The position numbers and the translations under genes are program-made. Below are positions 3,234 to 60,883 of a stretch of 63,510 bases of DNA, piece after piece. Numbering within the stretch: the first letter of the stretch is position 1; every line of letters begins with the position of its first letter. This DNA comes from Candidatus Competibacteraceae bacterium. GTDB lineage: Bacteria; Pseudomonadota; Gammaproteobacteria; Competibacterales; Competibacteraceae. The stretch lies in contig JAEUPW010000094.1 of the NCBI GenBank assembly GCA_016790045.1, positions 1-63,510 on the forward strand, given 5' to 3'. The notes beneath the pieces were generated by a model. It saw only the letters and a program-made list of their open reading frames with translations, was not told the DNA's origin and did not search any database.

Positions 3234-3272
3234 GTTGCCATCCTTTCCGGGATTGACCGCCGGTTCGTCTCG

Positions 3273-3734: not shown

Positions 3735-3745
3735 CGGCTAGCGGC

Positions 3746-6894: not shown

Positions 6895-6897
6895 CGT

Positions 6898-8661: not shown

Positions 8662-8699
8662 AATCGGTTCCTCTCACGCCAGCGCGCCGCTCGACCCGG

Positions 8700-9029
8700 T
8701 CAGATCGGCATGTTCATGATGTCTTGATAGGCGGAGACCAGCTTGTTGCGGGCTTGCAGGGTAGCCTGAAAATTCAGCCTGGCTTTTTGCTGGGCGATCA
8801 TCGCCCCCGCGAGATCCTGCGACTCGCCCCGGTCGAAGGTTTCGGCCATTTCAGTCGCCCGGTTCTGGGATCGATTGACGTCGCCCAGCATGGCCTTGAG
8901 CATCGCCGCGAAGTCGTCGGTGGACGAGGTTGCGGAATCGGCGCCGGCCGGAATGGCGGCCGCGCCGGCGAGCGCGCCCGCCGGGCGGGCAGGGTCGGCC
9001 AGCGGACGATTGGCATTGATCGAATTCAT
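8700..9029 (-). CDS. fliE: Flagellar hook-basal body protein FliE
   Basis: 109 residues from ATG at 9029, chosen over the longer upstream frame because GGAGCAGGA precedes it and the extra residues do not resemble FliE. The C-terminus (ARLNFQATLQARNKLVSAYQDIMNMPI read in two blocks) is the diagnostic FliE ending. FliE joins the MS ring to the proximal rod and is the first substrate of the export gate. It heads the fliEFGHIJK operon, with a sigma-54 promoter about 60 nt upstream. Confidence 0.94.
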   Translation of the reverse strand: MNSINANRPLADPARPAGALAGAAAIPAGADSATSSTDDFAAMLKAMLGDVNRSQNRATEMAETFDRGESQDLAGAMIAQQKARLNFQATLQARNKLVSAYQDIMNMPI

Positions 9030-9088
9030 CGGTTCCTGCTCCCTGAAATAAATGGGATCGCCGCTAAGGCGAAAGACAGAATGGCGGG

Positions 9089-9104
9089 AGCAAAAACTAT
9101 GCCC
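9089..9104 (-). promoter_or_regulatory. Sigma-54 promoter of the fliE operon
   Basis: On the minus strand the sequence reads GGGCAT, five bases, TTGCT, which fits the sigma-54 consensus TGGCAC-N5-TTGCW with the key GG (-24) and GC (-12) at the right distance. It lies 60 nt before the fliE start in the fleQ-fliE gap. FleQ-type regulators activate sigma-54 promoters, so direct control of this operon by the adjacent fleQ product is expected. Confidence 0.7.
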
Positions 9105-9206
9105 TAACTGAAACGGCTTGATTAACAAGCTATTGAGGAGAAATTGCTGGAGCGCGTCAATTACTTGGCGCGAAAAGCGCGAGCGGTGGCCGCCAACGGT
9201 CCGACA

Positions 9207-10685: not shown

Positions 10686-10738
10686 CGGCTCCTATCCTTG
10701 CAAAGATGAAGCGTGCCGCTGATAAATCGGCCAAAGAT

Positions 10739-10756
10739 CGGCAAATTACTTTGCCG
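10739..10756. promoter_or_regulatory. Inverted repeat in the fleQ leader
   Basis: CGGCAAA, four bases TTAC, then TTTGCCG: a perfect 7-bp inverted repeat 54 nt upstream of the fleQ start, in the 179-nt gap after the PilZ gene. No T-run follows it on either strand, so it is not a classical terminator. It may be an operator or a leader hairpin for fleQ. Confidence 0.4.
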
Positions 10757-10864
10757 GAACCCGATCCACCGCGTCACGCTTCCGCGCCGCTGTCGGAACT
10801 GTTTGGAGACAGCCGCAGCGTTGATGGTAGAATTGTAGTGAAGACCGGGCAGGTATCAAAGTAT

Positions 10865-11440
10865 TTAACGCGCGCTGCCGCGTCGGCTGTGCGCCACCGC
10901 GCGGCGGTGCTGGAGAAAAATGTACCGCTCCAGCGCTTCTTCAAGCGCTTCGCTGGGCTGCCGAAACCGGGTTTGGATGCGCCAGCCGCCCGCGTTGCGG
11001 TCGGTTTCGACCGTTTGGGCATGGCAGATCAGCGGTCGGGGATAACTCGGGTTGCAAAACAGCTCGATGCGCAACAATCCGCCGACCGGCGGGGCGAGAT
11101 CGTCTTGCCAGTTCAAACCGCTCACCGACAAAGTCAGCGTGCGTTCCGGCGGGATGTCCTGCTGGCGGGCGTATAGCTGACCCACCAGTTCGAGCAGCAA
11201 CCCGACCTTGAAATCCAGCCGCTTGAGTTCCGAGGCGTTGGCCAGCGCGGTGGGGTCGTCGCCGGAATCGCCGGCGTGAATGTCCAGGGCAAACAGCGTG
11301 TGCAAATGATTGAGATTGGCCCGCTCCAGCTCTTGCAGTTCGATGGCGTCGGGCAAGGCGGGCAGCTCGCGCCAGGCCAGCGGCCGACGGCCGGTGAAGA
11401 CCAGTCCGCCGGACGGAGGATTGGCGGGGTTGACGGTCAT
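10865..11440 (-). CDS. Atypical (tPilZ-like) PilZ domain protein, putative c-di-GMP related receptor
   Basis: 191 residues. The N-terminal half carries a helix of the type IELQELERANLNHLHTLFAL and a second helix with LDFKVGLLLELVGQLYARQQ, followed by a beta-rich part with LTLSVSGLNW and a GGLLRIELF strand. This arrangement, helices inserted before an RxxxR-less PilZ barrel, is the pattern of the atypical PilZ family described from Xanthomonas. Members are thought to control flagella or pili through protein contacts, and c-di-GMP binding is not guaranteed. It sits directly upstream of fleQ on the same strand, so a flagellar role is likely. Confidence 0.75.
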   Translation of the reverse strand: MTVNPANPPSGGLVFTGRRPLAWRELPALPDAIELQELERANLNHLHTLFALDIHAGDSGDDPTALANASELKRLDFKVGLLLELVGQLYARQQDIPPERTLTLSVSGLNWQDDLAPPVGGLLRIELFCNPSYPRPLICHAQTVETDRNAGGWRIQTRFRQPSEALEEALERYIFLQHRRAVAHSRRGSAR

Positions 11441-11470
11441 GTTCGAGCGCGCGCTTCCGGGCGAACGGGC

Positions 11471-11707
11471 TCAAGCTTCGGCCGAGGAGATGGCCGGATG
11501 GCCGATTTCCGTCTCGCCGCGGTTTTTCGAGACGATGCCGGGGAGCAAGTCATCGAGCGCCGAGGAGGTGGGCTCGATAATCACGCGGCCGCGTTCCGCC
11601 CGCACCTGCACCGCTTGTTCGATGTTTAGGCCGGCGTCTTTCATGACCGCCATCGGAATGCGCACTGCCGGGCTGTCTCCCCATCTTTTTATGATTCGCA
11701 ATGCCAT
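11471..11707 (-). CDS. AbrB/MazE-type swapped-hairpin DNA-binding protein (orphan antitoxin-like)
   Basis: 78 residues from ATG at 11707, preceded by a GGAGG site; the longer frame upstream is not family-like. The fold signature MALRIIKRWGDSPAVRIP, then QAVQVRAERGRVIIEP, is the MazE/AbrB DNA-binding hairpin, the WGDS-x-AVRIP form of MazE. No MazF-like toxin gene follows: the next gene is the PilZ protein 30 nt away. It may act as a local transcription regulator inside the flagellar block or be the relic of a lost toxin-antitoxin pair. Confidence 0.82.
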   Translation of the reverse strand: MALRIIKRWGDSPAVRIPMAVMKDAGLNIEQAVQVRAERGRVIIEPTSSALDDLLPGIVSKNRGETEIGHPAISSAEA

Positions 11708-11800
11708 AACGTCCTCCGCTCCAGTCTGGGTTCCGCGCCGAGCGCCTGTTTCATCGGGCAATGATGGTTTCGACTCCAAAGTCACGGAAACGTTGAAATT

Positions 11801-12121
11801 TTAAAATGTCTGATAGGCGTGACGGACGCGCCGGTTCTGGCCGAACGATTTGAGGTAGTCACCCAGTTTGTCCCGTTCTTCGCGCGCCAGTTCCAATAGC
11901 TGGGCGTCGCTATCCAACGCGACGCGGGCGGCGTCTTCGAGCGCGGAGGCCAGCTCGGCCGGCGGCGCTTCCCGGAACAGCTCCTCCAGCAAGGCCCGCC
12001 GTTTGACTTCCCATTCGGTGACCTCTTCCCAGCCGCCGGCCTGCGCCAGTTCGAGCATTTCGAGGCTCATCAGCCGCAGCAGCTTGATCGCCTGGGTCCA
12101 GTCGTCCGCCGCGACGATCAC
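11801..12121 (-). CDS. fliT: FliT-like flagellar chaperone
   Basis: 106 residues, all helical, Leu/Glu-rich, starting with GTG that overlaps the fliS stop (GTGA). Size and position directly after fliS fit FliT, the chaperone of the filament cap FliD, which in enterics also inhibits FlhDC. FliT proteins diverge strongly, so the name rests mostly on position; WEEVTEWEVKRRALLEELF is the type of helix seen in the family. Confidence 0.72.
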   Translation of the reverse strand: MIVAADDWTQAIKLLRLMSLEMLELAQAGGWEEVTEWEVKRRALLEELFREAPPAELASALEDAARVALDSDAQLLELAREERDKLGDYLKSFGQNRRVRHAYQTF

Positions 12122-12549
12122 GCAGGCGCGTCCGCGACGGCGGCGTCTTCCGCTTTCGGCGCGTCGCCGATGGCGTCCCAGGCTTCCTTGACCGGACGCA
12201 GCAGGTCGGCGACTTCGTCGAGCATGGCGACATCCGAACGCAGGTTGGCTTCCAGCAAGCGCTTCTGCAGGTAGGCGTACAGCGCGTCGAGATTGGCGGC
12301 GATTTCGCCGCCCGCGTCATGGTTCAAACCTTCGCGCAATCCGCCGACGATGTCGATGGCCTTGCCGATCTGCTCGCCCTTGCCGGCGATATCTTGGCGC
12401 TGGATGCAGCCCTTGGCGACGGCGATCCGCTCGAACGCCCCTTCCATCAGCATTTGAATCAGCCGGTGCGGGCTGGCGTAGGCCACGCTGCTTTGGGTGT
12501 TGACCTGCTGGTATTGGCGCAGACCTTTGGAAATGTTCGGTGTAGCCAT
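12118..12549 (-). CDS. fliS: Flagellin export chaperone FliS
   Basis: 143 residues from ATG at 12549. The start of the mature family is clear: LRQYQQVNTQSSVAYASPHRLIQMLMEGAFERIA in two runs between residues 9 and 43, with the conserved Tyr-x-Gln-Val and P-H-x-L-I-x-M-L-x-E-G motifs. FliS binds the C-terminus of flagellin and prevents premature polymerisation. The C-terminus is extended by an Ala/Asp-rich tail. A sigma-54 promoter lies 42 nt upstream. Confidence 0.95.
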   Translation of the reverse strand: MATPNISKGLRQYQQVNTQSSVAYASPHRLIQMLMEGAFERIAVAKGCIQRQDIAGKGEQIGKAIDIVGGLREGLNHDAGGEIAANLDALYAYLQKRLLEANLRSDVAMLDEVADLLRPVKEAWDAIGDAPKAEDAAVADAPA

Positions 12550-12590
12550 AGTGAATCCTTGAAGTTCTGGAAATAGTCCACGGGCATGTA

Positions 12591-12606
12591 TGCAACCCGG
12601 ATGCCG
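12591..12606 (-). promoter_or_regulatory. Sigma-54 promoter of fliST
   Basis: Minus strand: CGGCAT, five bases (CCGGG), TTGCA, with the GG and GC pairs at the canonical -24/-12 spacing. It shares the GGCAT form with the fliE promoter at 9089-9104. It lies between fliD and fliS in a 135-nt gap that is otherwise AT-rich near fliD. Confidence 0.6.
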
Positions 12607-12684
12607 GTGTAACATCCGTCTGGCTCTTTTGTGAAAAAAATATCAAATTCAGATAATTAAAAATAAAACTTGAGAATGGTCCAG

Positions 12685-14640
12685 CTAAGCCATGAGCTGT
12701 TGCGTCAGAAAACTGCCGGTGGCGCTGAGTTGGCTGACCAGTTGGTCCATCGCCGTGAATTGGGCGCGGTAGCGCGCTTCCATGACATCCATGCGCCGGT
12801 CGACCGCCTCGCGCTCGTTACCGAGATTCTTCATTTGCTTGTTGAGGCTTTCGGTGCGGCCGCTCAAGGGGCCGTCGCTGGCCAGGATATCGGTCAGCAA
12901 ATTGTCCAGGCGGGAGGCGAGACCGTCGGTCAACGACACCTTGCCGCGATCTCCGACCGCGCCGCCGGACACCTCGATCGCCAGGCCGGCCGCCGATCCG
13001 GTGGCCGTCAGCCGGCGGCCGGAACCGGTCGCCGCCACGCCGCCGACGCTGCCTTGCACGTCTTCGCCGGCCTCGCCCGCGCCGACGCTCGCGCCTATAG
13101 CGCCGCTCGCTCCCGCGCCGACCGCCGTGAATTCGATGGTGGAGCTGGCGCCGTAGCGGTTGGAGCTGAAGGTCAATGCGCTGTTGGCGTAGCTGACGGT
13201 GACGTTCGCCCCCGCCGCCTTCAAAGCGGAATCGCCGTTGATGCGGCTTTGCAGCTCGGCCGCCAGGTCGGTACCGGTATAGGTTCCCGCCGTCAGCGCG
13301 ATGCTGCCGGACGCCACGCCATCCACTTTCAGCGAGAACGCGGCATCGGCAGCGCCGACATTCAGATCTGCGGGAGCGCCCGCGTAGCGGCCCCGGGTCG
13401 CCAGTTTGGCAACCGCGATATCGTATTGGCCGCCTTGGGTTTCGGAGGTCGCGCCGACGTAGCGGATTTGCGGGTCGGTGGTTTGGCCGGAACGGGCGAA
13501 CAGCGCCGCGACATCGCCGGCGTTGCTGGCCACCGCTTCTTGGAGCTTGGCGCTGTTGAGCTTGAGCGTGCCGTCGCGCTCGGTGCTGATCCCGAGATCG
13601 CCCAGCGAGCGCACGCTGCCGGAAAGTCCGGCCACCGCGCTGCCGAGCATGCCCCGCAATTGTCCGGCGACGGATCGCACGCTGGAATCGTTGGCGAGCG
13701 CGCCTTGTTTGCCGCCGTTCGCGCCGCTGGCGGTCAGCGTTTTCACGCTGCCCAGCAAATCGTTATAGCCTTTGACGAACGCCTCGATGCCCTTGGTGAT
13801 TTCGGCGTTGTTCTGCTCCAGGGCCAAGGTGCTGGCCGTCCCAGCCGTCTTGAGATTCAGCGTCACGCCGGGGATGACCTCCTTGAGCGTATTGCTGGCG
13901 CTGCTGACGCTCAAGCCGTCCACCACGATCTTGGCGTCGGCCGCCGCCTGCGTCTGCTTGTCGGTCCGGTCGGCCGCGTTGGTCGGGTCGAAGCTCAGCA
14001 GCGACAAGCTGGGATCGCTGGCCGTGATTTTCAAGCTGTTGGCGGCACCGCTGTCCTTGGAGCCGATGACCAGCCGATAGCCGTTGCCGTCGTTGACGAT
14101 ATTGGCGACCACCCCGACATCCGCCTTGTTGATCGCGTCGCGCGCGCCGGCGAGCGTGCTGTTGGCCGGAATGACGATAGATTGGGTCGATTTGCTGGCG
14201 TTGGCGGCAAACGAATTGGCGGCGCTGTCGTAGGTGCCAAACTGGACGGTCAACGTCCCCGAACCCACCGTCGCGCTGGTGCTGGCGAACGCCTGGGCGG
14301 CGGGAGTCGCCAGCCGGTGCGCCTGCGCCAGTTGGTCGACCTTGATCGCATAGGTGCCGGTTTGAGCGCCGTTGGCGGCGGTAGCGGTAAAGGCTTTTTC
14401 GTCGCTGACCGCCGCCTTCATGATCTGGAAAGCGTCGGTTTTTTTCAGGTTGGACAAGGCATTCTGAAAAGTGGACAACGCGCTCTTGAACGTGCCGAGA
14501 CCCGAAATTTGGGCTTTGAGCTTGGTTTCGCGCGCGCTCAGGCGCTGGTCCATCGGCTGGCGCTGGGCCGCCACCAACTGGGACACCAACCCGTTGATGT
14601 CGATGCCCGAACCCAAACCGGATGCGCTGATGCCTGCCAT
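12685..14640 (-). CDS. fliD: Flagellar filament capping protein FliD
   Basis: 651 residues. The N-terminal FliD domain (ISASGLGSGIDINGLVSQLV near 3-22) and the C-terminal one (with KEVIPGVTLNLKTAG near 250 and a coiled coil ending QFTAMDQLVSQLSATGSFL) are plain. The middle (about 390-540) is Ala/Gly/Thr-rich and likely surface exposed. FliD forms the pentameric or hexameric cap that folds flagellin at the filament tip. It follows flaG by 35 nt in a fliC-flaG-fliD array. Confidence 0.96.
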   Translation of the reverse strand: MAGISASGLGSGIDINGLVSQLVAAQRQPMDQRLSARETKLKAQISGLGTFKSALSTFQNALSNLKKTDAFQIMKAAVSDEKAFTATAANGAQTGTYAIKVDQLAQAHRLATPAAQAFASTSATVGSGTLTVQFGTYDSAANSFAANASKSTQSIVIPANSTLAGARDAINKADVGVVANIVNDGNGYRLVIGSKDSGAANSLKITASDPSLSLLSFDPTNAADRTDKQTQAAADAKIVVDGLSVSSASNTLKEVIPGVTLNLKTAGTASTLALEQNNAEITKGIEAFVKGYNDLLGSVKTLTASGANGGKQGALANDSSVRSVAGQLRGMLGSAVAGLSGSVRSLGDLGISTERDGTLKLNSAKLQEAVASNAGDVAALFARSGQTTDPQIRYVGATSETQGGQYDIAVAKLATRGRYAGAPADLNVGAADAAFSLKVDGVASGSIALTAGTYTGTDLAAELQSRINGDSALKAAGANVTVSYANSALTFSSNRYGASSTIEFTAVGAGASGAIGASVGAGEAGEDVQGSVGGVAATGSGRRLTATGSAAGLAIEVSGGAVGDRGKVSLTDGLASRLDNLLTDILASDGPLSGRTESLNKQMKNLGNEREAVDRRMDVMEARYRAQFTAMDQLVSQLSATGSFLTQQLMA

Positions 14641-14675
14641 AACGACCTCCTACCCCACGCAAAAGCTCCGCATCG

Positions 14676-15203
14676 TTACGCCGTGGCCCGGAGCAACCAG
14701 CCTTCGACTTTTAATCGGCCGCTTTCCTGACCGCCGGGGTGGCGTTCGCCGGGCGGCGCGTGACTGTTTTGGGCTTCCTGCTCATCGAAAAACTTGGCGA
14801 GCGCCAAGGCTTGCTCCGATGGAATTTGCCTCACCACTTCCTGCGTCTGCTTGTCCACGATGCGCACGACCATCTGCTGAGATTTGTCGTCGATTTCAAA
14901 TTGCAGATGGGTGTCGTGTTGCCGCAGCCGCTGGTTGAGGTGATCGAGCGTGTCGCTCAGTTGCCGGCGAGCGGCGGCCGCGTCCTGCGGATGTTGCGGT
15001 TGGGCATGATCGGCGCGCCGTTGCCATTCCGCGTTGCCACCGGCGGGCGATTGCGCGACGGCCGATTGCGGCGCCGTCAGCGGTTGCGCGACCGCGCTTT
15101 GAACGGTGGCCGGCTCGTGCGGCGCGGCCCGTGGCCCGGACAATCCCTTGGACAATAACGCATTGGAGCCGGTTAGGCTGGTTAAGCTACCGATGTCGCT
15201 CAT
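14676..15203 (-). CDS. flaG: FlaG family protein
   Basis: 175 residues. An Ala/Pro/Gln-rich N-terminus precedes the FlaG domain (about 85-145): LNQRLRQHDTHLQFEIDD, MVVRIVDKQTQEVVRQIPSE, LALAKFFDE. FlaG influences filament length in Pseudomonas and Vibrio and typically lies between fliC and fliD, as here. The start is ATG with AAGGAGG seven to eight nt before it. Confidence 0.92.
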   Translation of the reverse strand: MSDIGSLTSLTGSNALLSKGLSGPRAAPHEPATVQSAVAQPLTAPQSAVAQSPAGGNAEWQRRADHAQPQHPQDAAAARRQLSDTLDHLNQRLRQHDTHLQFEIDDKSQQMVVRIVDKQTQEVVRQIPSEQALALAKFFDEQEAQNSHAPPGERHPGGQESGRLKVEGWLLRATA

Positions 15204-15226
15204 GGCGGCCCCTCCTTAACGACTCA

Positions 15227-15262
15227 AGCGAGGTCCGGGCGCGTTTCGGCCTGGACCTCGCT
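15227..15262. other. Stem-loop between fliC and flaG
   Basis: AGCGAGGTCC and GGACCTCGCT form a perfect 10-bp stem around a 16-nt loop, 28 nt after the fliC stop on the minus strand. No T-run follows, so it may act as a leaky terminator or as a 3' stabiliser that raises fliC mRNA over flaG-fliD, which would suit the need for far more flagellin than cap protein. Confidence 0.55.
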
Positions 15263-15289
15263 GTCTTGTCGGGCTGTGACTCGACCGAA

Positions 15290-16084
15290 TTACCGCAGCA
15301 GCGACAACACGCCCTGCTGAGACTGGTTGGCCTGCGACAGCATCGCGATGCCGGCCTGCTGCAGAACCTGCGACTTGCTCATCTTCGAGGTTTCCGCCGC
15401 GAAGTCGGCGTCCATGATCCGCGACCGGGAGGCCGACACGTTCTCGCTGACGTTTTGCAGGTTGGAGATGGTCGACTCGAAGCGGTTTTGCACCGCGCCG
15501 AGCGTGGCGCGGGACTCGGCAACTTCTTTGAGGACGCCATCGACTTCCGTGATCAGCGCTCCGGCATCGGCGGTGGTGCTGCCCGCCACGGCCGTGACTT
15601 TGGCCAGCGCGGTTAGCGTGATCGTGTCGTTCTCGTTCTCGCCGACCTGGATCTTCAGATCGGTGCCACCGAACACGCCCGTGCCGTTGAAACGGGTGTT
15701 GTCGTTGATCCGCGTCATTTCCGCCTTCAGTTCGGTCAGCTCCTTGTCGATCGCGGCGCGGTCATCGGCGCCGTTGGTATCGTTGGCACCCTGGACCGCC
15801 AGTTCGCGCATCCGCTGCAAGATATTGGTGCTTTCCTGCAAAGCGCCATCGGCGACCTGAGCGAAGGAGATGCCGTCGGCGGCGTTGCGGGCGGCTTGGT
15901 TCAGACCGCGAACCTGCGAGGTCATCCGGTCGCTGATCGCCAGACCAGCCGCGTCGTCCTTGGCGGAGTTGATGCGCAGGCCGGTGGTCAGACGCTGCAT
16001 CGCCGAAGTCTGCATGCCCTGAGAGCTGTTCAAACCACGTTGAGCGGTTAAGGAAGGAACGTTGGTGTTGATTCCGAGTGCCAT
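15290..16084 (-). CDS. fliC: Flagellin
   Basis: 264 residues, a short flagellin with only the D0/D1 core: N-terminal MALGINTNVPSLTAQRGLN, then LTTGLRINSAKDDAAGLAIS (about 32-51), and C-terminal ESTISNLQNVSENVSASRSR and QVLQQAGIAMLSQANQSQQ. The variable middle (about 130-185) is small, so the filament should be smooth. Only eight lysines are present, relevant to the adjacent fliB methylase. A sigma-28 promoter lies 95 nt upstream and a stem-loop follows. Confidence 0.97.
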   Translation of the reverse strand: MALGINTNVPSLTAQRGLNSSQGMQTSAMQRLTTGLRINSAKDDAAGLAISDRMTSQVRGLNQAARNAADGISFAQVADGALQESTNILQRMRELAVQGANDTNGADDRAAIDKELTELKAEMTRINDNTRFNGTGVFGGTDLKIQVGENENDTITLTALAKVTAVAGSTTADAGALITEVDGVLKEVAESRATLGAVQNRFESTISNLQNVSENVSASRSRIMDADFAAETSKMSKSQVLQQAGIAMLSQANQSQQGVLSLLR

Positions 16085-22000: not shown

Positions 22001-23695
22001 TTACAGATAATAAAAAATCAGGCAAGCGCCGAGCAGCAACACCGCCCACAGCACCATCCGGGTGGTGGGCCAGGTCGCGGCCATGATCCCCCGTTGGCCA
22101 TGATGCAGGGCCAGCGCCGCGATCAGCCGCTCCACGCTACCCTCCAGCAGGCGGTTGAAGCCTTCCCACGCGCGCAGCGCAGCGCCCCAAGCGCCGGCGG
22201 CGGCGGCGAGCAGCGGCTTGCGATAAAACCAATCGAAATCCAGGTTGACCGAGCGCAGTTCCGGCGGATAAACGCCGGTGCGCACCAGCAGGGCGAACGC
22301 CAAGGCCGACCAGGCGAGCAATTGCAGTTGGGTGATCACGTGGGTCGCGGTGTACGGATCGAAAGCGACCGGATACGGCAGGATGGCGTACAGCGCGCCC
22401 GGAAAAACGCCGATCCCGACGCACAGCGCCGCCGCCAGCCCCATCGCGACCAGCATGTGGCGGGGCGCTTCCTCGCAGCGGATGCCGCTGTCGTGCGCGA
22501 AGAAAGCGAAATAGGGAATCTTGATGCCGGCATGATGGAAAACGCCCGCCGAGGCAAACAGCAAAAACAGAAACGGAATCCAGTGACCTTCCCGCGCCGC
22601 CGCCTCCAAAATCAGCGACTTGGTGGCGAAGGCGCTAAACAGCGGAAACGCGGAAATCGACGCCGCGCCGACCATGCACAAGCCGGCGGTCAACGGCATG
22701 GACTTGTACAGCCCGCCCAGTTCCGAGCCGTTGACCGTGCCCGCGCGCAACAGCACCGCGCCCATGCTCATGAACAGCAGCGCTTTGAATAAAATATCGG
22801 CGAAGGCGTGCGCCACCGCGCCATCCAGGGCCAGCGGCGTGCCGATGCCCACGCCCACGACCATGAAGCCGAGCTGGTTGTTCATGCTGTAGGCCAGCAC
22901 CCGGCGCAGATCGTTCTCGATCACCGCGTAAAAAATCGGAAACATCGCCATAAGAGTGCCGATGGCGACCAGCGATTCGGTTCCGGCGAAACCGCGCGCC
23001 AGGGCGTAGACCGCCATCTTGGTGGTGAAGGCGGACAGCACCACGGCGCCGGTCACCGTCGCTTCGGGATAAGCGTCCTGCAACCAGTTATGCAGCAGCG
23101 GAAACGCGGCCTTGATGCCGAAGGCGACGAAAATCAATCCTCCGCCCGGACTGTCCAGCCCCAAGCCGCCGAAAGCGATCGATCCGGTCGCCCGAAAGCG
23201 AATGATCACTCCGGCCAGCAGCAGCAGGCCCGAGGCGACCTGCGCCAGCAGATAGCGCAGGCCGGCGCGGTAGGCCCGCCGCGTGCGCCGCGCCCAAATC
23301 AAAAACACCGAGGACACGGCGGCCAGCTCCCAACACAAGAACAACGTCACCAGATCGCCCGCGAGCACCGCGCCCACCGCCGCGCCCGGATACAGCAGCC
23401 CCGCCACCTGCTGCACGGGGTCGCGCAGCCCCCAGGCGTAAATGACCGCCAGCAGCGCGGCGATGTGAAACACCAGGGCGAAGGCGAAGCTCAAGCCGTC
23501 GAGCCGCAACGTGGTCAGCGTCAGGCCGAACGCCTCGACCCTGGCGTGCTCGCCGTAAGGCAAACTCCACAGTTGCAGCGCGCCGAGGACCGGCAGCGCC
23601 AGCATGAACAGATTGCGGCTCCGGCCTTGCGGCGCGAGCAGCGCCAGCAACGACCCGCAGACCAGGATCAGCGCCGGATTGAGGCCGTCAATCAC
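22001..23695 (-). CDS. Third MrpD/NuoN-like antiporter subunit of the Mbh-type Mrp operon
   Basis: 564 residues with about 14 membrane helices plus a C-terminal tail longer than in the other two paralogues. The proton-path residues are kept: Glu in FLCWELAAVSS (about 117), Lys in FGIKAAFPLLHNWL and Lys in SAFTTKMAVYA. It is more divergent than the other two D subunits (many substitutions around SMNNQLGF). It starts at a GTG that overlaps the preceding small gene by 8 nt, and ends the operon. It could be an antiporter module or an adapter for an unknown partner. Confidence 0.85.
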   Translation of the reverse strand: MIDGLNPALILVCGSLLALLAPQGRSRNLFMLALPVLGALQLWSLPYGEHARVEAFGLTLTTLRLDGLSFAFALVFHIAALLAVIYAWGLRDPVQQVAGLLYPGAAVGAVLAGDLVTLFLCWELAAVSSVFLIWARRTRRAYRAGLRYLLAQVASGLLLLAGVIIRFRATGSIAFGGLGLDSPGGGLIFVAFGIKAAFPLLHNWLQDAYPEATVTGAVVLSAFTTKMAVYALARGFAGTESLVAIGTLMAMFPIFYAVIENDLRRVLAYSMNNQLGFMVVGVGIGTPLALDGAVAHAFADILFKALLFMSMGAVLLRAGTVNGSELGGLYKSMPLTAGLCMVGAASISAFPLFSAFATKSLILEAAAREGHWIPFLFLLFASAGVFHHAGIKIPYFAFFAHDSGIRCEEAPRHMLVAMGLAAALCVGIGVFPGALYAILPYPVAFDPYTATHVITQLQLLAWSALAFALLVRTGVYPPELRSVNLDFDWFYRKPLLAAAAGAWGAALRAWEGFNRLLEGSVERLIAALALHHGQRGIMAATWPTTRMVLWAVLLLGACLIFYYL

Positions 23696-23960
23696 CGTAA
23701 TAATCCTCGTCTCGCTTCACCAGCTTGCGCATCTGCTTGGCCAGCAGCACCAGCGCGACGCAGCAGATAAAGCCGTACCACGCAAAAAAGCCGAACCAGC
23801 TTTCAAACCCGAAGGTCGCGTGCTTGCGATAAGCCAAATCGCTCAGCAGCAGCAAAACGCAAACCCCGACCAGACCGTAAAAGATCTTATCGACATGGCG
23901 CGGCTCGTCCAGCCAATAGCGTTTTTCCGGTCGGTCGGCGCAGGGCGAGGGATCGGTCAT
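23688..23960 (-). CDS. Small two-helix membrane protein in Mrp-like operon
   Basis: 90 residues: a hydrophilic N-terminus (EKRYWLDEPRHVDKIFYGLV), two membrane segments (about 25-43 and 55-75) and a charged tail ending DEDYYGD. It is squeezed between the second and third D subunits, 9 nt after one and overlapping the other by 8 nt, so it is likely a structural part of the complex. I recognise no named family. Confidence 0.75.
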   Translation of the reverse strand: MTDPSPCADRPEKRYWLDEPRHVDKIFYGLVGVCVLLLLSDLAYRKHATFGFESWFGFFAWYGFICCVALVLLAKQMRKLVKRDEDYYGD

Positions 23961-23969
23961 CGGGGCCTC

Positions 23970-25448
23970 TCAACGATCGGTGATCGGCGCGAGCAGCGCG
24001 TACAAGGAATCGGCGTGAAAAAACAGCAACAGGCAACCGAACGCGGTCAGGCACAAGGGAATCACGCAGGCCAGCGGCGCTTCGCGCACGGCCAGCGCGG
24101 GACCGCCGACCGCCAGCTCGCCGGACGGGGCGGCCACGAAAAACCCGCGCGCCGCCACCGGCAGCAGATAGGCCACGTTCAGCAGCGAACTCAACAGCAA
24201 CACCGCCATCAGCGCCCATTGCTGCGCATCCGCCGCGCCCGCCAGCAGATACCACTTGCTCCACGACCCGCCCAGCGGCGGCAGGCCGACAATGCTGAGC
24301 GCGCCGATCAGAAACGCCCCGAACGTGAACGGCATCACCCGGCCCAAGCCGTCCAGTTGGCTGATTTCGGTTTTGTGGGTGGCGGTGTAGATCGCCCCGG
24401 CGCAAAAGAACAAGGTGATCTTGCCCAGGGCGTGGGTGACGATCTGCATCGAGCCGCCGATCACCCCCATCGAGGTCGCCAGCGCCGCGCCCAACACCAC
24501 GTACCCCAACTGGCTGACGGTCGAATAAGCCAGCCGCGCTTTGAGATTGTCCTGGGTCAGGGCCACCAACGAGGCCAGCAGCACGGTCAGCGCCGCCACC
24601 CACATCAGCCAAACCGACGCGCCGGTCTCGTTCAGAAAATCGACGCCGAACACGTAAACGGTCACCTTCAGCACCGAAAACACCCCGGCCTTGACCACCG
24701 CCACGGCGTGCAGCAAGGCGCTGACCGGCGTCGGCGCGACCATCGCCGCCGGCAGCCAGCGGTGAAACGGCATCAGCGCCGCCTTGCCGATCCCGAACAT
24801 GTACAAGGCCAGCAACACGCTCGCCAGAGGGCCTTCGATCTTGCCGGCCAGAATTCCGCCCGGCGCGAATTCCAAAGAGCCGGCGACGGCCCAGGTCCAG
24901 ACGATGGCCAGCAGCAAAAAGCCGATGGAGGTGCCGATCAGGATGCCGAGATACAACCGGCCGGCCCGCATCGCCTCCGGCGTGCCCTTGTGCGTGACCA
25001 AGGGGTAGGTCGAGAGGGTCAGCGCTTCGTAAAAGACGAACAGCGTCAGCAGATTGCCGGCGAAGGCGACGCCGATGGTGCAGGCGATGGCGACGGCGAA
25101 ACAGACGTAAAAGCGGGTTTGGTGCGATTCCTGGTTGCCGCGCATGTAGCCGATGGAATAGAGCGAATTGAGCGGCCACAGCAGCGCCGCCACGCAGGCG
25201 AAAGTCATCCCCAGCGGCTCCACGGTCAGCCGCAGCGGAAAACCGGGGGCGAACTCCAGCAGTTCCACCGAGGGCCGCGCGCCGCCCGCCACCGCCGGCA
25301 GCAGCGACAGCACCGCACCGAGCAACAGCAGCGACGCCAGCAAGGTCGCGCCCTCGCGCCAGTTGGGCCGCCGGCCGTTGAGGGCGATGAAGAACGCGCC
25401 CAGCAGCGGGATAAAAAGCGCGAGGACCAACAGGCTTTCGGCGCTCAC
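23970..25448 (-). CDS. Second MrpD/NuoM-like antiporter subunit
   Basis: 492 residues from a GTG whose last bases overlap the preceding stop (GTGA); the longer frame upstream is only the shadow of the neighbour. Helices carry LFVFYEALTLSTYPLVTHKG (Glu about 132), GIGKAALMPFHRWLPAAMVA and VVKAGVFSVLKV, the Glu/Lys/Lys set of NuoM/MrpD subunits. This paralogue is closer to the NuoM/MbhH type than the neighbour. Part of the same coupled operon. Confidence 0.9.
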   Translation of the reverse strand: MSAESLLVLALFIPLLGAFFIALNGRRPNWREGATLLASLLLLGAVLSLLPAVAGGARPSVELLEFAPGFPLRLTVEPLGMTFACVAALLWPLNSLYSIGYMRGNQESHQTRFYVCFAVAIACTIGVAFAGNLLTLFVFYEALTLSTYPLVTHKGTPEAMRAGRLYLGILIGTSIGFLLLAIVWTWAVAGSLEFAPGGILAGKIEGPLASVLLALYMFGIGKAALMPFHRWLPAAMVAPTPVSALLHAVAVVKAGVFSVLKVTVYVFGVDFLNETGASVWLMWVAALTVLLASLVALTQDNLKARLAYSTVSQLGYVVLGAALATSMGVIGGSMQIVTHALGKITLFFCAGAIYTATHKTEISQLDGLGRVMPFTFGAFLIGALSIVGLPPLGGSWSKWYLLAGAADAQQWALMAVLLLSSLLNVAYLLPVAARGFFVAAPSGELAVGGPALAVREAPLACVIPLCLTAFGCLLLFFHADSLYALLAPITDR

Positions 25449-26926
25449 GGCGTCGCCCCCAACAGCCCCTGCGCCGCCAGGCGCGCCACGCCCACATTGA
25501 GCGAGGTCTCCAGACCGAAATACAGATTGGCCAAGGCCAGCGCCCACGTGGGCACCAGCAGCGCCAGCGGCGCTTCTTCGACCCTTTGCCCTTCCGGGGC
25601 CGGCTTGAAATAAGCCACTTCCACCACCCGCCCGATATAAATCACCGCCAGCAGCGAGGTCGCCAGCACCAGCGCCGCCACCGGCCACCAGCCTTTCTCC
25701 AGCGCGCCCACGATCAGATACCACTTGCTGACGAAACCGGCGGTCAAGGGGACGCCGATCAGGCTCAAGCCGCCGATCACGAACGCGCCCATGGTCCAGG
25801 GCATCGACCGCCCGACTCCGGCCATCCGCTCCAGCCGGGTCGCGCCGACCCGGTAGGACACGCAACCCAAGGCCATGAACAGCGTCCCCTTCATCAGCGC
25901 GTGATTGAACAGGTGGCTGATGCTGGCGGTCAAGCCGGTCACCGACACCAGGCTGACCCCCAGCATCATGTAGCCGATCTGGGCGACGCTGGAATAGGCC
26001 AGCATCCGTTTGACGTTGGTCTGGAAAATCGCCACCAGCGACGCGCTGGCGATCCCCACCAGCGATAAAGGCAGCAGGATTTTATCCAACTGCATGGTTT
26101 CGAACGAGAATTTCACGCCGAACACGGTAAAGAAAAAGCGCAACATCACGTAAATAGCCACTTTGGTGGCCGTGGCCGCCAAAAAAGCCGTGACGGGCGA
26201 CGGCGCGTAGGCGTAGGCGTTGGGCAGCCAAAGATGCAGCGGAAACAGCGCCAGCTTGATCGCGGTGCCGACCGTCAGAAAGGCGAACGCGGCCCGCACC
26301 GTGCGGGTTCCCGACACCGCCGGCAACCGCGCGGCCAGATCGCCCATGTTCAGGGTGCCGGTCATCACGTACAGCAACCCGATCCCGATCAGGATAAAGG
26401 TCGCGCCCACGGTGCCCATGATCAGATATTGATAGGCGGCGACCAGCGCTCGACGGTCGCGGCCGACGCTGATCAGCACGTAGCTCGACAGCGCCGAGAT
26501 CTCTAGGAACACGAAGACGTTAAAGGCGTCGCCGGTGACCGTGATGCCCAACAACCCGGTCAGGCACAACAGATAGGCGGTGTAGAACCAGGGGTGCTTG
26601 TTGAGCGGCAAACTCAGCCGTTGCTCGACGATGGTTCGCCCGAAACTCGCGACGGCCGCGCCGATGGCCGCGACGATCAACAGCATATAGGCGTTGAGCG
26701 CGTCCACCCGGTATTCGATGCCCCACGGGATCGGCCAGCCGCCCATCAGATAGGAAATCGGCCCGTGAGCCAACACCTGATACAGCAGCAGCGCCGCGAT
26801 CAGAAACGCCAGCCAGCTCGCCGCCATCGCCGCCAGCCACGCCGGCCGGCCGGCCGGCAGCAAGGCGCACAGCGGCGCCGAAATCAGCGGGATGACGACT
26901 TGCAGCGCCGGCAGATGGGCGATCAC
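25445..26926 (-). CDS. First MrpD-like antiporter subunit
   Basis: 493 residues from GTG at 26926, whose GTGA overlaps the mrpC stop. Membrane helices carry FVFLEISALSSYVLISVGRD (Glu about 139), AIKLALFPLHLWLPNAYAYA and ATATKVAIYVMLR, the conserved ion-path residues of MrpD. With MrpC upstream this forms the C-D pair of a Na+(K+)/H+ antiporter. Best conserved of the three D paralogues. Confidence 0.92.
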   Translation of the reverse strand: MIAHLPALQVVIPLISAPLCALLPAGRPAWLAAMAASWLAFLIAALLLYQVLAHGPISYLMGGWPIPWGIEYRVDALNAYMLLIVAAIGAAVASFGRTIVEQRLSLPLNKHPWFYTAYLLCLTGLLGITVTGDAFNVFVFLEISALSSYVLISVGRDRRALVAAYQYLIMGTVGATFILIGIGLLYVMTGTLNMGDLAARLPAVSGTRTVRAAFAFLTVGTAIKLALFPLHLWLPNAYAYAPSPVTAFLAATATKVAIYVMLRFFFTVFGVKFSFETMQLDKILLPLSLVGIASASLVAIFQTNVKRMLAYSSVAQIGYMMLGVSLVSVTGLTASISHLFNHALMKGTLFMALGCVSYRVGATRLERMAGVGRSMPWTMGAFVIGGLSLIGVPLTAGFVSKWYLIVGALEKGWWPVAALVLATSLLAVIYIGRVVEVAYFKPAPEGQRVEEAPLALLVPTWALALANLYFGLETSLNVGVARLAAQGLLGATP

Positions 26927-27282
26927 GGCGAATCGTCCCGATCCTGGGCGAGAATCTCGTCGGCTTCGATGGTGCCGTAGGCTTCTTGGATGCGGACCAC
27001 CAGCGCCAGGCCGAGCGAGGTGGTGGCGACGCCGACCACGATGGCGGTCAGGATCAGGACGTGCGGCAGCGGGTTGCTGTAAACCGCCGCCTTGTCGATC
27101 ACGATGGGCGCGGTGCCGCCGATGATCTTGCCCATGCTGATGTAGAGGATGAACACCGAGGTTTGGAAGATGCTCAAGCCGACCAGCTTTTTGATCAGGT
27201 TGTCGCTGGCGATGACCATGTAAAAACCGCACATCATCAAGACGATGAAAATCCAGTAATTAAAGTGCCCCAGAATCTGCAC
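26923..27282 (-). CDS. mrpC: MrpC (NuoK-like) antiporter subunit
   Basis: 119 residues, three membrane helices, with the MrpC/NuoK features FNYWIFIVLMMCGFYMVIAS and PLPHVLILTAIVVGVATTSL (about 74-93). The start is GTG. MrpC bridges the D subunits to the rest of the complex. The C-terminal acidic tail (DEILAQDRDDSP) extends slightly beyond the family core. Confidence 0.93.
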   Translation of the reverse strand: MQILGHFNYWIFIVLMMCGFYMVIASDNLIKKLVGLSIFQTSVFILYISMGKIIGGTAPIVIDKAAVYSNPLPHVLILTAIVVGVATTSLGLALVVRIQEAYGTIEADEILAQDRDDSP

Positions 27283-27327
27283 GGTTCCCCCCTCGGCCCG
27301 TTTTGGCGAACGCGCGGCCTGACGCTC

Positions 27328-27747
27328 TCACCGTCCCCGGCCAGCGAAGGCGTAGAAAATCGTCACCATGACTGACGACACGGTGATCCCCACGCCCAGT
27401 TCCACCCACAAAATCCCCAGATGCTGGCCGTGCGCCGGATCGCGCGCATCCAGCACGGCGTAATCCAGATACTGCCCGCCCAACAGCGGCCCCAGAAGCC
27501 CCACCCCGGCGTAGATCAGCACCCCCAGCGAAACACCGATGCGCAGCACCCAGGGCGGCATCAGCCGGCGCGCGTTGTCCAGACCGTAAATCAGCGCGTA
27601 CAAAATGAAGCCCGCACCGAAAATCACCCCGGCTTGAAACCCGCCGCCCGGCCCGTAATCGCCGTGAAATTGGACGTAGAGGGCGAACAGGAGGATCAGC
27701 GGCAACAGCAGCTTGGTCCCGACGCGCGGGATGGTGTAGCGCTTCAT
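27328..27747 (-). CDS. mrpB: MrpB (MnhB) antiporter subunit
   Basis: 139 residues, four helices, with the MnhB signature YVQFHGDYGPGGGFQAGVIF (about 24-43) and a conserved end LGVGITVSSVMVTIFYAF. It overlaps the DUF4040 gene through ATGA. It is a free-standing B subunit, unlike the second operon where B is fused to A. Confidence 0.94.
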   Translation of the reverse strand: MKRYTIPRVGTKLLLPLILLFALYVQFHGDYGPGGGFQAGVIFGAGFILYALIYGLDNARRLMPPWVLRIGVSLGVLIYAGVGLLGPLLGGQYLDYAVLDARDPAHGQHLGILWVELGVGITVSSVMVTIFYAFAGRGR

Positions 27748-28298
27748 CGCGCGTCATCCTGGCCGGAAGGCGGGCGGCGCGCGCCGCCGATCAACAGCAG
27801 CACGCCGATGGCGGCGGTGAAGACCACGGTGGTTTCCCCGAGCGTGTCATACCCCCGATAGCTGGCCAACACCGAGGTCACGATGTTGGGAATGCCGATT
27901 TCCTCCGGCGAATCCTCGATAAAGCGCTGCACCAGATGGTGGTGGATCGGGTTGGCCGGATCGCCGTAAGCCGGGATGTCCCACGTGCCGTAGACCAGCG
28001 CCAATCCGGTGACGGTCACCGCCAGCAGCGGCAGCAGCGTCTTGCGGGCGCTTTTGGGCTTTTCCTTGCTGGCGGTCAGCGCCAGCGCGCCCAGCATGAA
28101 CACCGTCGAAACTCCCGCGCCCACCGAAGCCTCGGTGAAGGCCACGTCCACGGCGTCCAGCACCACGAACAGGCTGGCCGACACGAAACTGTAGATGCCG
28201 AACAGCATCACCACGGCGAACAAATCCCGCAGGCGGATGGCGGCCACGGCCACGACGACCAGCAGCGTGAGGAGAAACAGATCGACTAAGGTTTCGAT
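27744..28298 (-). CDS. DUF4040 (MbhD / MrpA C-terminal-like) subunit
   Basis: About 184 residues. The first part (LFLLTLLVVVAVAAIRLRDL, then VVLDAVDVAFTEASVGAGVS at about 45-64) matches the DUF4040 domain that forms the C-terminal unit of MrpA or stands alone as MbhD; the second half (PNIVTSVLASYRGYDTLGET at about 137-156) matches the MbhE-like part. The homologous start coincides with codon ATC at 28298, preceded by CGGGAG; there is no ATG, GTG or TTG nearby, so the start is uncertain (ATC, or an internal CTG at 28280). It overlaps mrpG by 13 nt. Confidence 0.85.
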   Translation of the reverse strand: METLVDLFLLTLLVVVAVAAIRLRDLFAVVMLFGIYSFVSASLFVVLDAVDVAFTEASVGAGVSTVFMLGALALTASKEKPKSARKTLLPLLAVTVTGLALVYGTWDIPAYGDPANPIHHHLVQRFIEDSPEEIGIPNIVTSVLASYRGYDTLGETTVVFTAAIGVLLLIGGARRPPSGQDDAR

Positions 28299-28618
28299 GG
28301 CGGCGGCTCCCGGTGCAGCAGCGGGTCGGGCTGGCCGGGATCGGCCAGCGCCGCCCGCGCCAGGGCGTGGGTGGCGATCGGGCCGGTAAACCACAGAAAC
28401 GCCAGGATCAAAAACAGCTTGACGGTCACCAGGGTCCAGCCTGACTGCAAGGCCAGACCCAACACGATCAGGCCCGCGCCGAGCGTGTCGGTGATGCTGG
28501 CCGCGTGCAGGCGGGTATAAAAGTCCGGCATCCGCAGCAGCCCCACCCCGCCGATCGCGGCGAACGCCACGCCGGCCAGCAGCGACAGCCAACTGAGCAG
28601 ATCGAGCAGCGCAGCCAT
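28286..28618 (-). CDS. mrpG: MrpG (MnhG) antiporter subunit
   Basis: 110 residues, three helices, with the G-subunit motif GVGLLRMPDFYTRLHAASIT (about 24-43) and ALARAALADPGQ. The start is taken as ATG at 28618, which shares its A with the mrpF stop (TGATG); a GTG one codon earlier is equally possible. The end overlaps the DUF4040 gene. Confidence 0.92.
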   Translation of the reverse strand: MAALLDLLSWLSLLAGVAFAAIGGVGLLRMPDFYTRLHAASITDTLGAGLIVLGLALQSGWTLVTVKLFLILAFLWFTGPIATHALARAALADPGQPDPLLHREPPPSKP

Positions 28619-28911
28619 CACAGATCGTCCCGCGATTCCTCGGCGACGTTGCGCGGCCAGCCCATGTCGCCGTAGCGGATGAACTTGAGGACCGCCAAGG
28701 TGCCGATGAAACTGATGAACGCATACACCAGCGCGATGTCGAGAAAATCGGGCCGGCCGCTCATGAAGCCCAGCACCGCGATGAGCAGCACGGTCAGGGT
28801 GCCGAAGGAATTGACCGCCACGATCCGGTCGTAGACCGTAGGCCCCAGCACGGCGCGGGCCATCGCCAAAACCATGCAGACCAACACGCCGAGCGCCGCC
28901 GCCACGAACAT
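28618..28911 (-). CDS. mrpF: MrpF (MnhF) antiporter subunit
   Basis: 97 residues, three helices, with the family motif ARAVLGPTVYDRIVAVNSFG (about 18-37) and DIALVYAFISFIGTLAVLKF (about 58-77). ATG overlaps the mrpE stop (ATGA). MrpF and MrpG together stabilise the Mrp complex and carry Asp/Pro residues needed for transport in studied members. Confidence 0.93.
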   Translation of the reverse strand: MFVAAALGVLVCMVLAMARAVLGPTVYDRIVAVNSFGTLTVLLIAVLGFMSGRPDFLDIALVYAFISFIGTLAVLKFIRYGDMGWPRNVAEESRDDL

Positions 28912-29396
28912 CAGCCGCCCCCTTCCAAGCGGCGCACGCGCCGGTCCATCTCGCCCTCCAGCAAAGCGTCGGCGCCCTCTCGGGTCAGGGCGTGCACCTG
29001 CAAGGTGTCGCCCTTCAAGGCGGTGGTCACCGTCCCCGGCGTCAGGGTGATGGAGTTGGCGTAGATGACCCGGCCCAGATCGCCGCGCTGGCTCGGCTTC
29101 AGGGTGATCAGGGTCGGGCTGATCGGCAGCTTGGGGTCGATGATGCGCTTGGCGATATCGAGATTGGCCCGCACGATCTGCCACAGCAGCCAGGGCCAAT
29201 AGGCCAGGATGGACAGGTTGAGCCGCAACCGCAAAGGCCGCTCTTCCGGGTCGATCACCTCGGCGCGCCAGCCGACGAAGACCACCAGCGCGCAGGATAG
29301 AACGCCGAAGACCAACAGCAGCGGAACGTCGAAATAGCCGGACAGCAACAGCCACAAGCCGAAGCAGAACACCCACGACAGCAGCGCGTGCAGCAA
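28911..29396 (-). CDS. mrpE: MrpE (MnhE) antiporter subunit, first gene of the operon
   Basis: 161 residues starting with TTG (AAGGGG six nt upstream). Two N-terminal helices are followed by a cytoplasmic domain with NLDIAKRIIDPKLPISPTLI and NSITLTPGTVTTALKGDTLQ, the MnhE signature. It heads the nine-to-ten-gene operon that runs to 22001. The 159-nt gap to the divergent biotin ligase gene should hold its promoter, but I could not place one confidently. Confidence 0.92.
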   Translation of the reverse strand: MLHALLSWVFCFGLWLLLSGYFDVPLLLVFGVLSCALVVFVGWRAEVIDPEERPLRLRLNLSILAYWPWLLWQIVRANLDIAKRIIDPKLPISPTLITLKPSQRGDLGRVIYANSITLTPGTVTTALKGDTLQVHALTREGADALLEGEMDRRVRRLEGGG

Positions 29397-59420: not shown

Positions 59421-59436
59421 TATTCCACGTGGAATA
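59421..59436. promoter_or_regulatory. 16-bp palindrome, copy 1 (downstream of radical SAM gene)
   Basis: TATTCCACGTGGAATA, perfect palindrome, 22 nt after the radical SAM stop and 91 nt before the cupin start. Identical to copies at 59449 and 60752. Its half-site resembles parS (GTTCCAC) with A at the first position, as in the Noc site. Confidence 0.85.
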
Positions 59437-59448
59437 GCCGCGCCGCTT

Positions 59449-59464
59449 TATTCCACGTGGAATA
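59449..59464. promoter_or_regulatory. 16-bp palindrome, copy 2
   Basis: Same 16 bases, centre 28 nt from copy 1 (not quite three helical turns). In RNA the two copies could also pair with each other around a 12-nt loop, a possible transcript end for the radical SAM gene. Confidence 0.85.
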
Positions 59465-59526
59465 TTCTCCAGCCCTCCAAACCCCTCAAGCTTTTTGCCG
59501 CCCGGACTCCGGCAGGGATCGAAGCG

Positions 59527-59865
59527 ATGTTCAACCCCCAAAGTGACAGCGGCTATCGGCAGTTAGCGGACGGCATCCGGCAAAAGACCCTGAACTTCGG
59601 CGAGCGCACCTTGATGGCGGAATTCAAGCTGGCCCAAGGCAGCCTGCTTCCCGTCCACGCTCACCCCTACGAGCAAACCGGTTACCTGATCTCTGGCCGG
59701 CTTCGGCTCCGGATCGGCGGCGAGGAATTCGCTGCCCGCGCGGGCGATTCTTGGTGCATTCCGGCCGATGTCGAACACGGCGCGCAGGTGCTCGAAGATG
59801 CGGTGGCGATCGAGGTATTCTCGCCGGTGCGCGAGGATTATTTGCCCGCCGATATCCGCTCGTAG
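59527..59865 (+). CDS. Small cupin domain protein
   Basis: 112 residues from ATG at 59527 (AGGGA upstream). The cupin motif LLPVHAHPYEQTGYLISGRL (about 38-57) with two His, Gln/Glu, then IPADVEHGAQVLEDAVAIEV. A single-domain metal-binding cupin of unknown substrate. It stands between two palindromes and the convergent scpB. Confidence 0.9.
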   Translation: MFNPQSDSGYRQLADGIRQKTLNFGERTLMAEFKLAQGSLLPVHAHPYEQTGYLISGRLRLRIGGEEFAARAGDSWCIPADVEHGAQVLEDAVAIEVFSPVREDYLPADIRS

Positions 59866-59926
59866 CGCGCGCTCGGGTCATGCCCGCCGCTGTCGCTCCA
59901 TCCAAAGCGCCGGCCGTTCGCCCGAT

Positions 59927-60706
59927 TCATTCGCCCTTGAACTGGGGTTTGCGCTTTTCCAAAAAGGCGGTCAACCCTTCCTGATAGTCGTGACTGTCGT
60001 AGACGGTGCGCCGCAGGCCCTGAATCCGTTCGAACAGCTCGGGCGTGATCGAGCGGGCGCTGGAAAGCAGCCGCAATTCTTCCTTCATCACGGAAATGCT
60101 CAGCGGCGCGTTGGCGACGATTTGACCGGCGAGCTGATAGACGAACGCTTCGATTTCATCGACCGGTTTGATGTAGTTGATGACGCCCAGATTCAGCGCC
60201 TGCGCCGCCGGAATCGGTTGCGCCGTAAACAGCATCTCTTTGGCCACCGGCAACGGGATCATGTTCATCACCGTTAGCAGGCCGCCCAAATTGTAAGGAA
60301 CGCCCAACTTGGCGGGCGTGATGGCGAAGGTGGCTTCCGGCGTGGCCACCAAAATGTCGCAGGCCATGGCGACCTCGCAGCCCCCGCCCCACACGCCGCC
60401 TTGAATCAAGCCGAGCACGGGTCCCGGATATTCCTGGATCGCCCGGATCAACACGCGCAAGGAATCGCTCCAGCCCAGCGGATCGCGGCCCCGATTCGGC
60501 AGTTCGCTCACATCGTGACCGGCCGACCACACTTTGGCGCCGGATGGAGCCCGCAAAACCACGGTGCGGATATTCTGTTCTTTGAAAGCCTCTAAGGTGG
60601 TGGTAATTTCATCGATCAGGGCCTCGCTCAAGGCATTGCGCTTGGCCGCATGGTTCATGATGATGGTGCCGATGGCGTTCTCGGTTTCGCTGATGATCAG
60701 GGACAC
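59927..60706 (-). CDS. scpB: Methylmalonyl-CoA decarboxylase (crotonase family)
   Basis: 259 residues, GTG start with GAGG nine nt upstream. Close to E. coli ScpB: WSAGHDVSELPNRGRDPLGW, QGGVWGGGCEVAMACDILVA, TPAKLGVPYNLGGL, and a near-identical end YDSHDYQEGLTAFLEKRKP. It converts methylmalonyl-CoA to propionyl-CoA and CO2 in the cytoplasm without pumping Na+. No mutase or CoA transferase is nearby. Confidence 0.93.
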   Translation of the reverse strand: MSLIISETENAIGTIIMNHAAKRNALSEALIDEITTTLEAFKEQNIRTVVLRAPSGAKVWSAGHDVSELPNRGRDPLGWSDSLRVLIRAIQEYPGPVLGLIQGGVWGGGCEVAMACDILVATPEATFAITPAKLGVPYNLGGLLTVMNMIPLPVAKEMLFTAQPIPAAQALNLGVINYIKPVDEIEAFVYQLAGQIVANAPLSISVMKEELRLLSSARSITPELFERIQGLRRTVYDSHDYQEGLTAFLEKRKPQFKGE

Positions 60707-60751
60707 GTTGTGAGCCTCGCTGGTGCGTTAGCGGCGCGGTTGGGGGTCGGT

Positions 60752-60774
60752 TATTCCACGTGGAATAGTATAGT
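60752..60774. promoter_or_regulatory. 16-bp palindrome, copy 3, beside a -10-like TATAGT
   Basis: TATTCCACGTGGAATA at 60752-60767, in the gap between divergent scpB and the PqaA-like gene; TATAGT follows at 60769-60774 and could be the -10 of the rightward gene. A protein bound to the palindrome would cover this promoter, so repression is plausible. Confidence 0.75.
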
Positions 60775-60883
60775 GCGCTCCAACTTTTAAGATTTTTCCC
60801 GTTGCCGGGTCGAGTTCTGGGGCGCTGTTGGCGGGTGATTGAAAGCTTATTTCCATTTCGACGCTTTGGAGCTTAGTAAATCA

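Follow-up and report, generated by a model that had tools for sequence, protein, structure and literature searches.

Palindromes and genes at the locus

The stretch of DNA analysed, referred to here as the window, was 63,510 nucleotides long and constitutes contig C73 of its own genome (G000), a 2.76 Mb draft in 179 contigs that was 76% complete. Near its end, a radical SAM gene (PF04055; 58254..59399, + strand) was followed by a cupin gene (PF07883; 59527..59865, +), an enoyl-CoA hydratase/isomerase gene (PF00378, 6e-46; 59927..60706, -) and a PqaA-like gene (PF10142; 60839..63157, +), homologues of which were present on G024:C5 and G053:C54. The third of these genes had been called scpB in the original prediction; it encodes a methylmalonyl-CoA decarboxylase-like enoyl-CoA hydratase, unrelated to the condensin ScpB.

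Three exact copies of the 16-bp palindrome TATTCCACGTGGAATA, for which no strand is assigned and which are called parS2 below, were present among these genes, as had been predicted: site 1 at 59421..59436, site 2 at 59449..59464 (28 bp from site 1) and site 3 at 60752..60767. The intergenic location of all three was borne out by the distances to the neighbouring genes. Sites 1 and 2 lie 22 and 50 bp past the radical SAM stop and ahead of the cupin start, and site 3 lies 46 bp upstream of the divergent enoyl-CoA hydratase gene, between this and the PqaA-like gene. The cupin gene is therefore between the sites, and the radical SAM gene is an upstream marker of sites 1 and 2 that stands outside the mechanism proposed below. 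The window had been said to hold no other copy, and no further match was found in it at up to three mismatches, for which the chance expectation was 0.05; none of the shuffled sequences reached three matches. A -10 element, TATAGT, had also been proposed beside site 3, a claim left without support by a promoter search of 60752-60800, which detected nothing sigma-70-like. The original reading of the bases was right, in that position 1 is A, as in Noc sites, and position 6 is A, as in parS.

A search of all 179 contigs returned the same three exact copies and no more, together with two matches at three mismatches that were non-palindromic. As for the suggested check, the clustering around the origin and parAB that was to be looked for would apply to a probable second replicon, because the cognate protein would be ParB2 (see below) and not the ParB of the chromosome.

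Distribution of the site in relatives

Other members of the family also carried the palindrome TATTCCACGTGGAATA, usually as groups of two or three copies, and the site class in the Competibacteraceae can be written as TAT[T/G]CCACGTGG[A/C]ATA. The number of exact sites in 39 family genomes ranged from 0 to 7 per genome, tightly clustered on few contigs. A scan for tandem pairs in 257 billion bases of named genomes returned 18 places, of which 15 were in Competibacteraceae records (pairs 34-69 bp apart) and three were in Bacteroidota. Among the 15, two MAGs that had been submitted under the names Phycisphaerales (GAO1) and Synechococcaceae (SM1_2_3) seem to belong to the Competibacteraceae (G041 and G044). 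The Bacteroidota contigs (L107, L111 and L112, from Tannerellaceae and Bacteroides records) carried TATCCCACGTGGGATA or TATTCCACGTGGAATA in tandem, possibly as an unrelated partition-like array. The canonical parS, TGTTTCACGTGAAACA, was also found in six family genomes on contigs other than the palindrome contigs, so that one cell holds both kinds of site.

A second ParB that accompanies the site

Two ParB proteins are encoded by G000. ParB1, on C19, is in the context rsmG-parA-parB-atp and has R173, N178 and G201 (Caulobacter numbering), while ParB2, on C71 (12266-13144), has Q173, K178 and G201; the register of these specificity residues was confirmed against solved ParB structures. In G000 and G024, parB2 is directly preceded by the gene for ParA2 (AAA_31), which bears an N-terminal MerR-like extension. 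ParB2 of G000 exceeded the TIGR00180 cut-off, and its G024 orthologue contained PF02195, PF17762 and PF23552 (the ParB_N, HTH_ParB and ParB_C/dimerisation domains). The ParB2 clade was separate from that of ParB1 (SH-aLRT 97). In PLSDB, no near relative of ParB2 was present among the matches listed (ParB <50% identity), with one further match at 60-80%.

ParB2 orthologues (72-86% identity) were found in 25 of the 39 Competibacteraceae genomes, and all 25 had Q173, K/R178 and G/S201. The pattern TATKCCACGTGGMATA was present in 22 of the 25 genomes with ParB2 and in 1 of the 14 without it (Fisher p = 8.6e-7); its reversed-pattern control was present in none of the 39. The three ParB2 genomes lacking TATKCCACGTGGMATA were G009, G053 and G052, the last covered by the loose pattern count only. 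Sites with a degenerate centre were found on the contig with parB2 and rep in both G053 (TATGCCACATGGCATA twice, and TATGCCATGTGGCATA) and G009 (TATGCCACGCGGCATA). In G043, whose assembly is 90% complete with Rep cut at a contig end, the site was present and ParB2 was not found.

Site and gene were also physically close. In G024 a site follows parB2 at a distance of 10 bp, and a copy differing in one base is present farther along; in G017 two sites are located 22 and 64 bp behind parB2; site and parB2 shared a contig in G002, G020, G046, G047 and G049. These observations bear on the suggestion that the palindrome is an operator through which a nearby regulator controls the radical SAM, cupin, enoyl-CoA hydratase and PqaA genes. 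Two of the positions beside these genes are indeed conserved in other genera: G047, G053 and G009, like the window, retain a site behind the radical SAM gene, at 26-31 bp in these three genomes, and in G053:C54 a site (9355, TATGCCACATGGCATA) adjoins the orthologous hydratase gene, ahead of it, in the same arrangement as in the window. However, the sites of G024 and G017 flank parB2 or unrelated genes, so that no shared regulated function is apparent, sites 1 and 2 are at the 3' end of the radical SAM gene, site 3 had no promoter match, and the presence of the site tracked ParB2 genome-wide. A local operator is consequently very unlikely.

The residues of ParB2 agree with the bases of the site. 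Jalal et al. (2020) reported that Q173 recognises A at site position 1 and that R201 recognises C at position 6, and that the mutants QKAG, QTKG and QKKG, which combine Q173 and G201 with a permissive lysine, prefer hybrid parS/NBS sites (PMC7383237). As judged from sequence, a palindrome with A1 and A6 should be exactly the site expected for a Q173 and G201 protein such as ParB2. ParB2 has no K at 179 or 184, which the laboratory Q173 mutants need, and has a basic residue at 178 instead; K/R178 probably plays the permissive role.

Two other readings of the palindrome can be weighed against this code. As a variant of the canonical chromosomal parS read by ParB1, it would differ from TGTTCCACGTGGAACA in one symmetric G/A and C/T pair only. 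Against this, both site types occur on different contigs of the same six genomes, ParB1 retains R173 like the ParBs that read parS, and nearly all ParB1 genomes without ParB2 also have no sites, which makes recognition by ParB1 highly improbable. A Noc-like site for nucleoid occlusion, which was among the original suggestions, is favoured by A1 in the site and Q173 in the protein. Yet the sites are few and clustered, where many scattered copies would be expected, ParB2 is paired with its own ParA, residue 201 is G (G/S in the clade) and not R, and position 6 is A and not C. A role in nucleoid occlusion is thus hardly credible.

A probable secondary replicon

The contig used as reference, G024:C5 (250,712 bp; GenBank RXIV01, isolate CPB_P15), carries parA2B2, all four exact sites of G024 and a Rep_3 initiator gene at 112697-114106 (PF01051 5e-16, PF21205). 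The Rep_3 initiator was linked to the parB2 contig in five genomes (G000, G009, G013, G024 and G053), its orthologues in G000, G009, G013 and G053 were 71-90% identical, and the genes behind rep were kept across genera. Four Contendobacter-type genomes had a divergent Rep_3, which was on the palindrome contig in G046 and G047. No near relative of Rep was found in PLSDB, the best matches being at about 36-43%.

The gene content of these contigs differed from that of the chromosome. Of the best hits of thirty contigs with the site, parB2 or rep, 212 fell on G024:C5 and 43 on C1, despite samples of 201 genes for G024:C5 and 738 for C1; a ParB1 control contig gave 0 and 7, respectively. No tRNA gene was present on the 250 kb of G024:C5, compared to 13 on 836 kb of C1. 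In G024, G049, G006 and G023 the sole full murI gene (glutamate racemase) was located on a rep or site contig, which in G024 is C5. Composition was chromosome-like, with a GC content of 57.7% for G024:C5 and 55-63% for the C1 samples. The cumulative GC skew of G024:C5 had its minimum at 102.7 kb, and the skew around rep fitted in G024, G009, G013 and G000; it did not in G053, and for this reason GC skew is regarded as supporting evidence only.

Taken from fragmented assemblies, the rep, parB2 and site contigs point to a conserved secondary replicon (chromid), which would be a separate closed molecule and whose gene pool differs from that of the chromosome. The same system could instead be part of the main chromosome, having been integrated there as a second par locus or as an old plasmid. 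This would accord with the fragmentation of every assembly and with the single tRNA gene found on each of G046:C43 and G047:C7, and the codon-usage correlation of 0.993 between G024:C5 and C1 would fit a single chromosome and a chromid alike. It agrees poorly with a Rep_3 initiator and rep neighbourhood conserved across genera, with a skew minimum near rep (112.7 kb) in G024, and with 250 kb devoid of tRNA genes and a gene pool unlike that of C1. A location on the main chromosome is therefore possible but unlikely.

In G000 itself, parA2B2-rep is on C71 and the sites are on C73, the two being joined solely by synteny with relatives. In G053, parB2 ends at 58056 and directly adjoins the orthologues (G053:C54 58154-63935, 70-82% identity) of a Mrp-type Na+/H+ antiporter cluster located at 22001..29396 (-) in the window. 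Orthologues of the radical SAM gene (78-88% identity) were on the site or parB2 contigs of five genomes, and those of DUF4105-like and SOD genes of the window (named by eye) were on parB2 contigs. On these grounds the window is most likely a fragment of the proposed ParB2 secondary replicon, as read from the sequence.

Three further observations were made on these assemblies. A flagellar cluster (fliF to fliK, fliC and fliD, by eye) at 1098-16084 of the window, on the parS2 contig, was without homologues on the remaining replicon contigs of the comparison. Contig G024:C1 contained two complete rsmG-parA-parB-atp regions, one near 80 kb and one near 858 kb (L211, L212), through duplication or chimeric assembly. 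On G000:C127 (L189) there was another Rep_3 orthologue (75% to the query) besides that of C71, from a second replicon or from contamination of the bin.

The palindromes are, with high probability, the parS-type sites of a ParA2-ParB2-parS2 system that partitions a conserved Rep_3 secondary replicon of the Competibacteraceae, of which the window is a fragment. The original suggestion of a partition-site variant was thereby strongly supported, by co-occurrence with ParB2, adjacency and the residue code, at the expense of the Noc-like and operator readings. Sites, co-occurrence, linkage, residues and the shared gene pool were computed, and from them we infer DNA binding, partition function and a separate circular replicon. 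ParB2, as a dimer, would recognise the palindrome with Q173, which reads A1, and G201, which keeps A6, and K/R178 would probably serve as the permissive basic residue. Bound ParB2 would load onto the flanking DNA and activate ParA2, and the sister replicons would be separated. By combining A1, as in Noc sites, with A6, as in parS, the hybrid specificity would bar ParB2 from canonical parS and ParB1 from parS2, and ParB2 would be expected to prefer TATTCCACGTGGAATA and TATGCCACGTGGCATA over TGTTTCACGTGAAACA and TATTTCCCGGGAAATA.

CTPase motif and related ParB types

The P-motif 2 of ParB2 departs from GERR, the form present in ParB1: it was GHMR in 24 of the 25 orthologues (e.g. L005:1402-2283 +) and GHLR in one. 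In the ParB of Caulobacter, the substitution E102A impairs CTP hydrolysis and locks the clamp, and with R103A or R104A the binding of CTP is lost or weakened (PMC8367383). The occurrence of H and M at 102-103 across the whole ParB2 clade suggests altered nucleotide handling. Judged by sequence, GHMR is a deviation inside the ParABS family and does not exclude ParB2 from membership. A more far-reaching possibility, which we advance tentatively and consider rather less probable than its opposite, is that the Competibacteraceae have a chromid, so far undescribed, that is inherited vertically, bears essential genes and is served by a ParB of natural parS/NBS hybrid specificity. Since this ParB would lack the catalytic glutamate and one of the arginines that bind CTP, partition would proceed with altered or no CTP hydrolysis.

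A ParB2-like protein of G008 (54% identity) had E173 and the motif GEMR, and was accompanied by a palindrome of its own, CTTGCCACGTGGCAAG, of which the genome has eight copies, three of them immediately behind parB (G008:C92 (L221) 5144, 5243, 5341 and 7845; also G008:C206 and C350). Set beside Q173 and the A1 site, this third pairing of residue and base indicates that the residue-173 types go with different position-1 bases. A further parAB type, with A173, GERR kept and an N-terminal extension of ParA, was seen at L220:5944-8043 (G016:C18) and L224:3413-5506 (G023:C100). In G016 the Rep_3 gene was kept and ParB2 was absent, suggesting a swapped partition system.

Comparison with known systems

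Systems of this kind are already known from the Bsr replicons, secondary replicons of the Burkholderiales (PMC5450999), where related, replicon-specific ParBs are likewise matched to 16-bp palindromes with a central CG that are distinct from chromosomal parS. The Competibacteraceae system belongs to another bacterial order and has the site TATKCCACGTGGMATA, and its likeness to Bsr is one of system layout. With the chromosomal Spo0J/ParB-parS system (TGTTNCACGTGNAACA) it shares the ParB_N, HTH_ParB and ParB_C domains, the palindrome length and a CACGTG core. In contrast to that system, parS2 has A:T for G:C at position 1 and is located away from rsmG-atp, ParB2 has Q173, K/R178 and GHMR for GERR, and ParA2 is extended at its N-terminus. 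Noc and its site, NBS (TATTTCCCGGGAAATA), have A1 and Q173 in common with parS2 and ParB2, and differ in C6, R201, the want of a cognate ParA and the abundance of sites. The laboratory intermediates QKAG, QTKG and QKKG (PMC7383237) resemble ParB2 in Q173, G201 and hybrid sites, whereas ParB2 is natural and clade-wide and has its basic residue at 178 rather than at 179 or 184.

In the open-access literature searched, neither a Competibacteraceae chromid nor this site was described. The family is missing from a survey of secondary replicons in Gammaproteobacteria (PMC10272867), which cites an earlier study in which gammaproteobacterial chromids were, rare exceptions aside, limited to Vibrionaceae, Pseudoalteromonas and Rahnella. 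Apparently new are the Competibacteraceae replicon, the hybrid site together with a natural ParB that fits it, and the GHMR motif.

The Competibacteraceae are key glycogen-accumulating organisms in wastewater treatment, and they probably carry an undescribed secondary replicon that is conserved over at least eight genera. As ParB2 would be a natural, clade-wide counterpart of the ParB-to-Noc intermediates, with genomic sites of its own, the residue-base code becomes testable by evolution. The GHMR change, in turn, raises the question of whether partition needs CTP hydrolysis.
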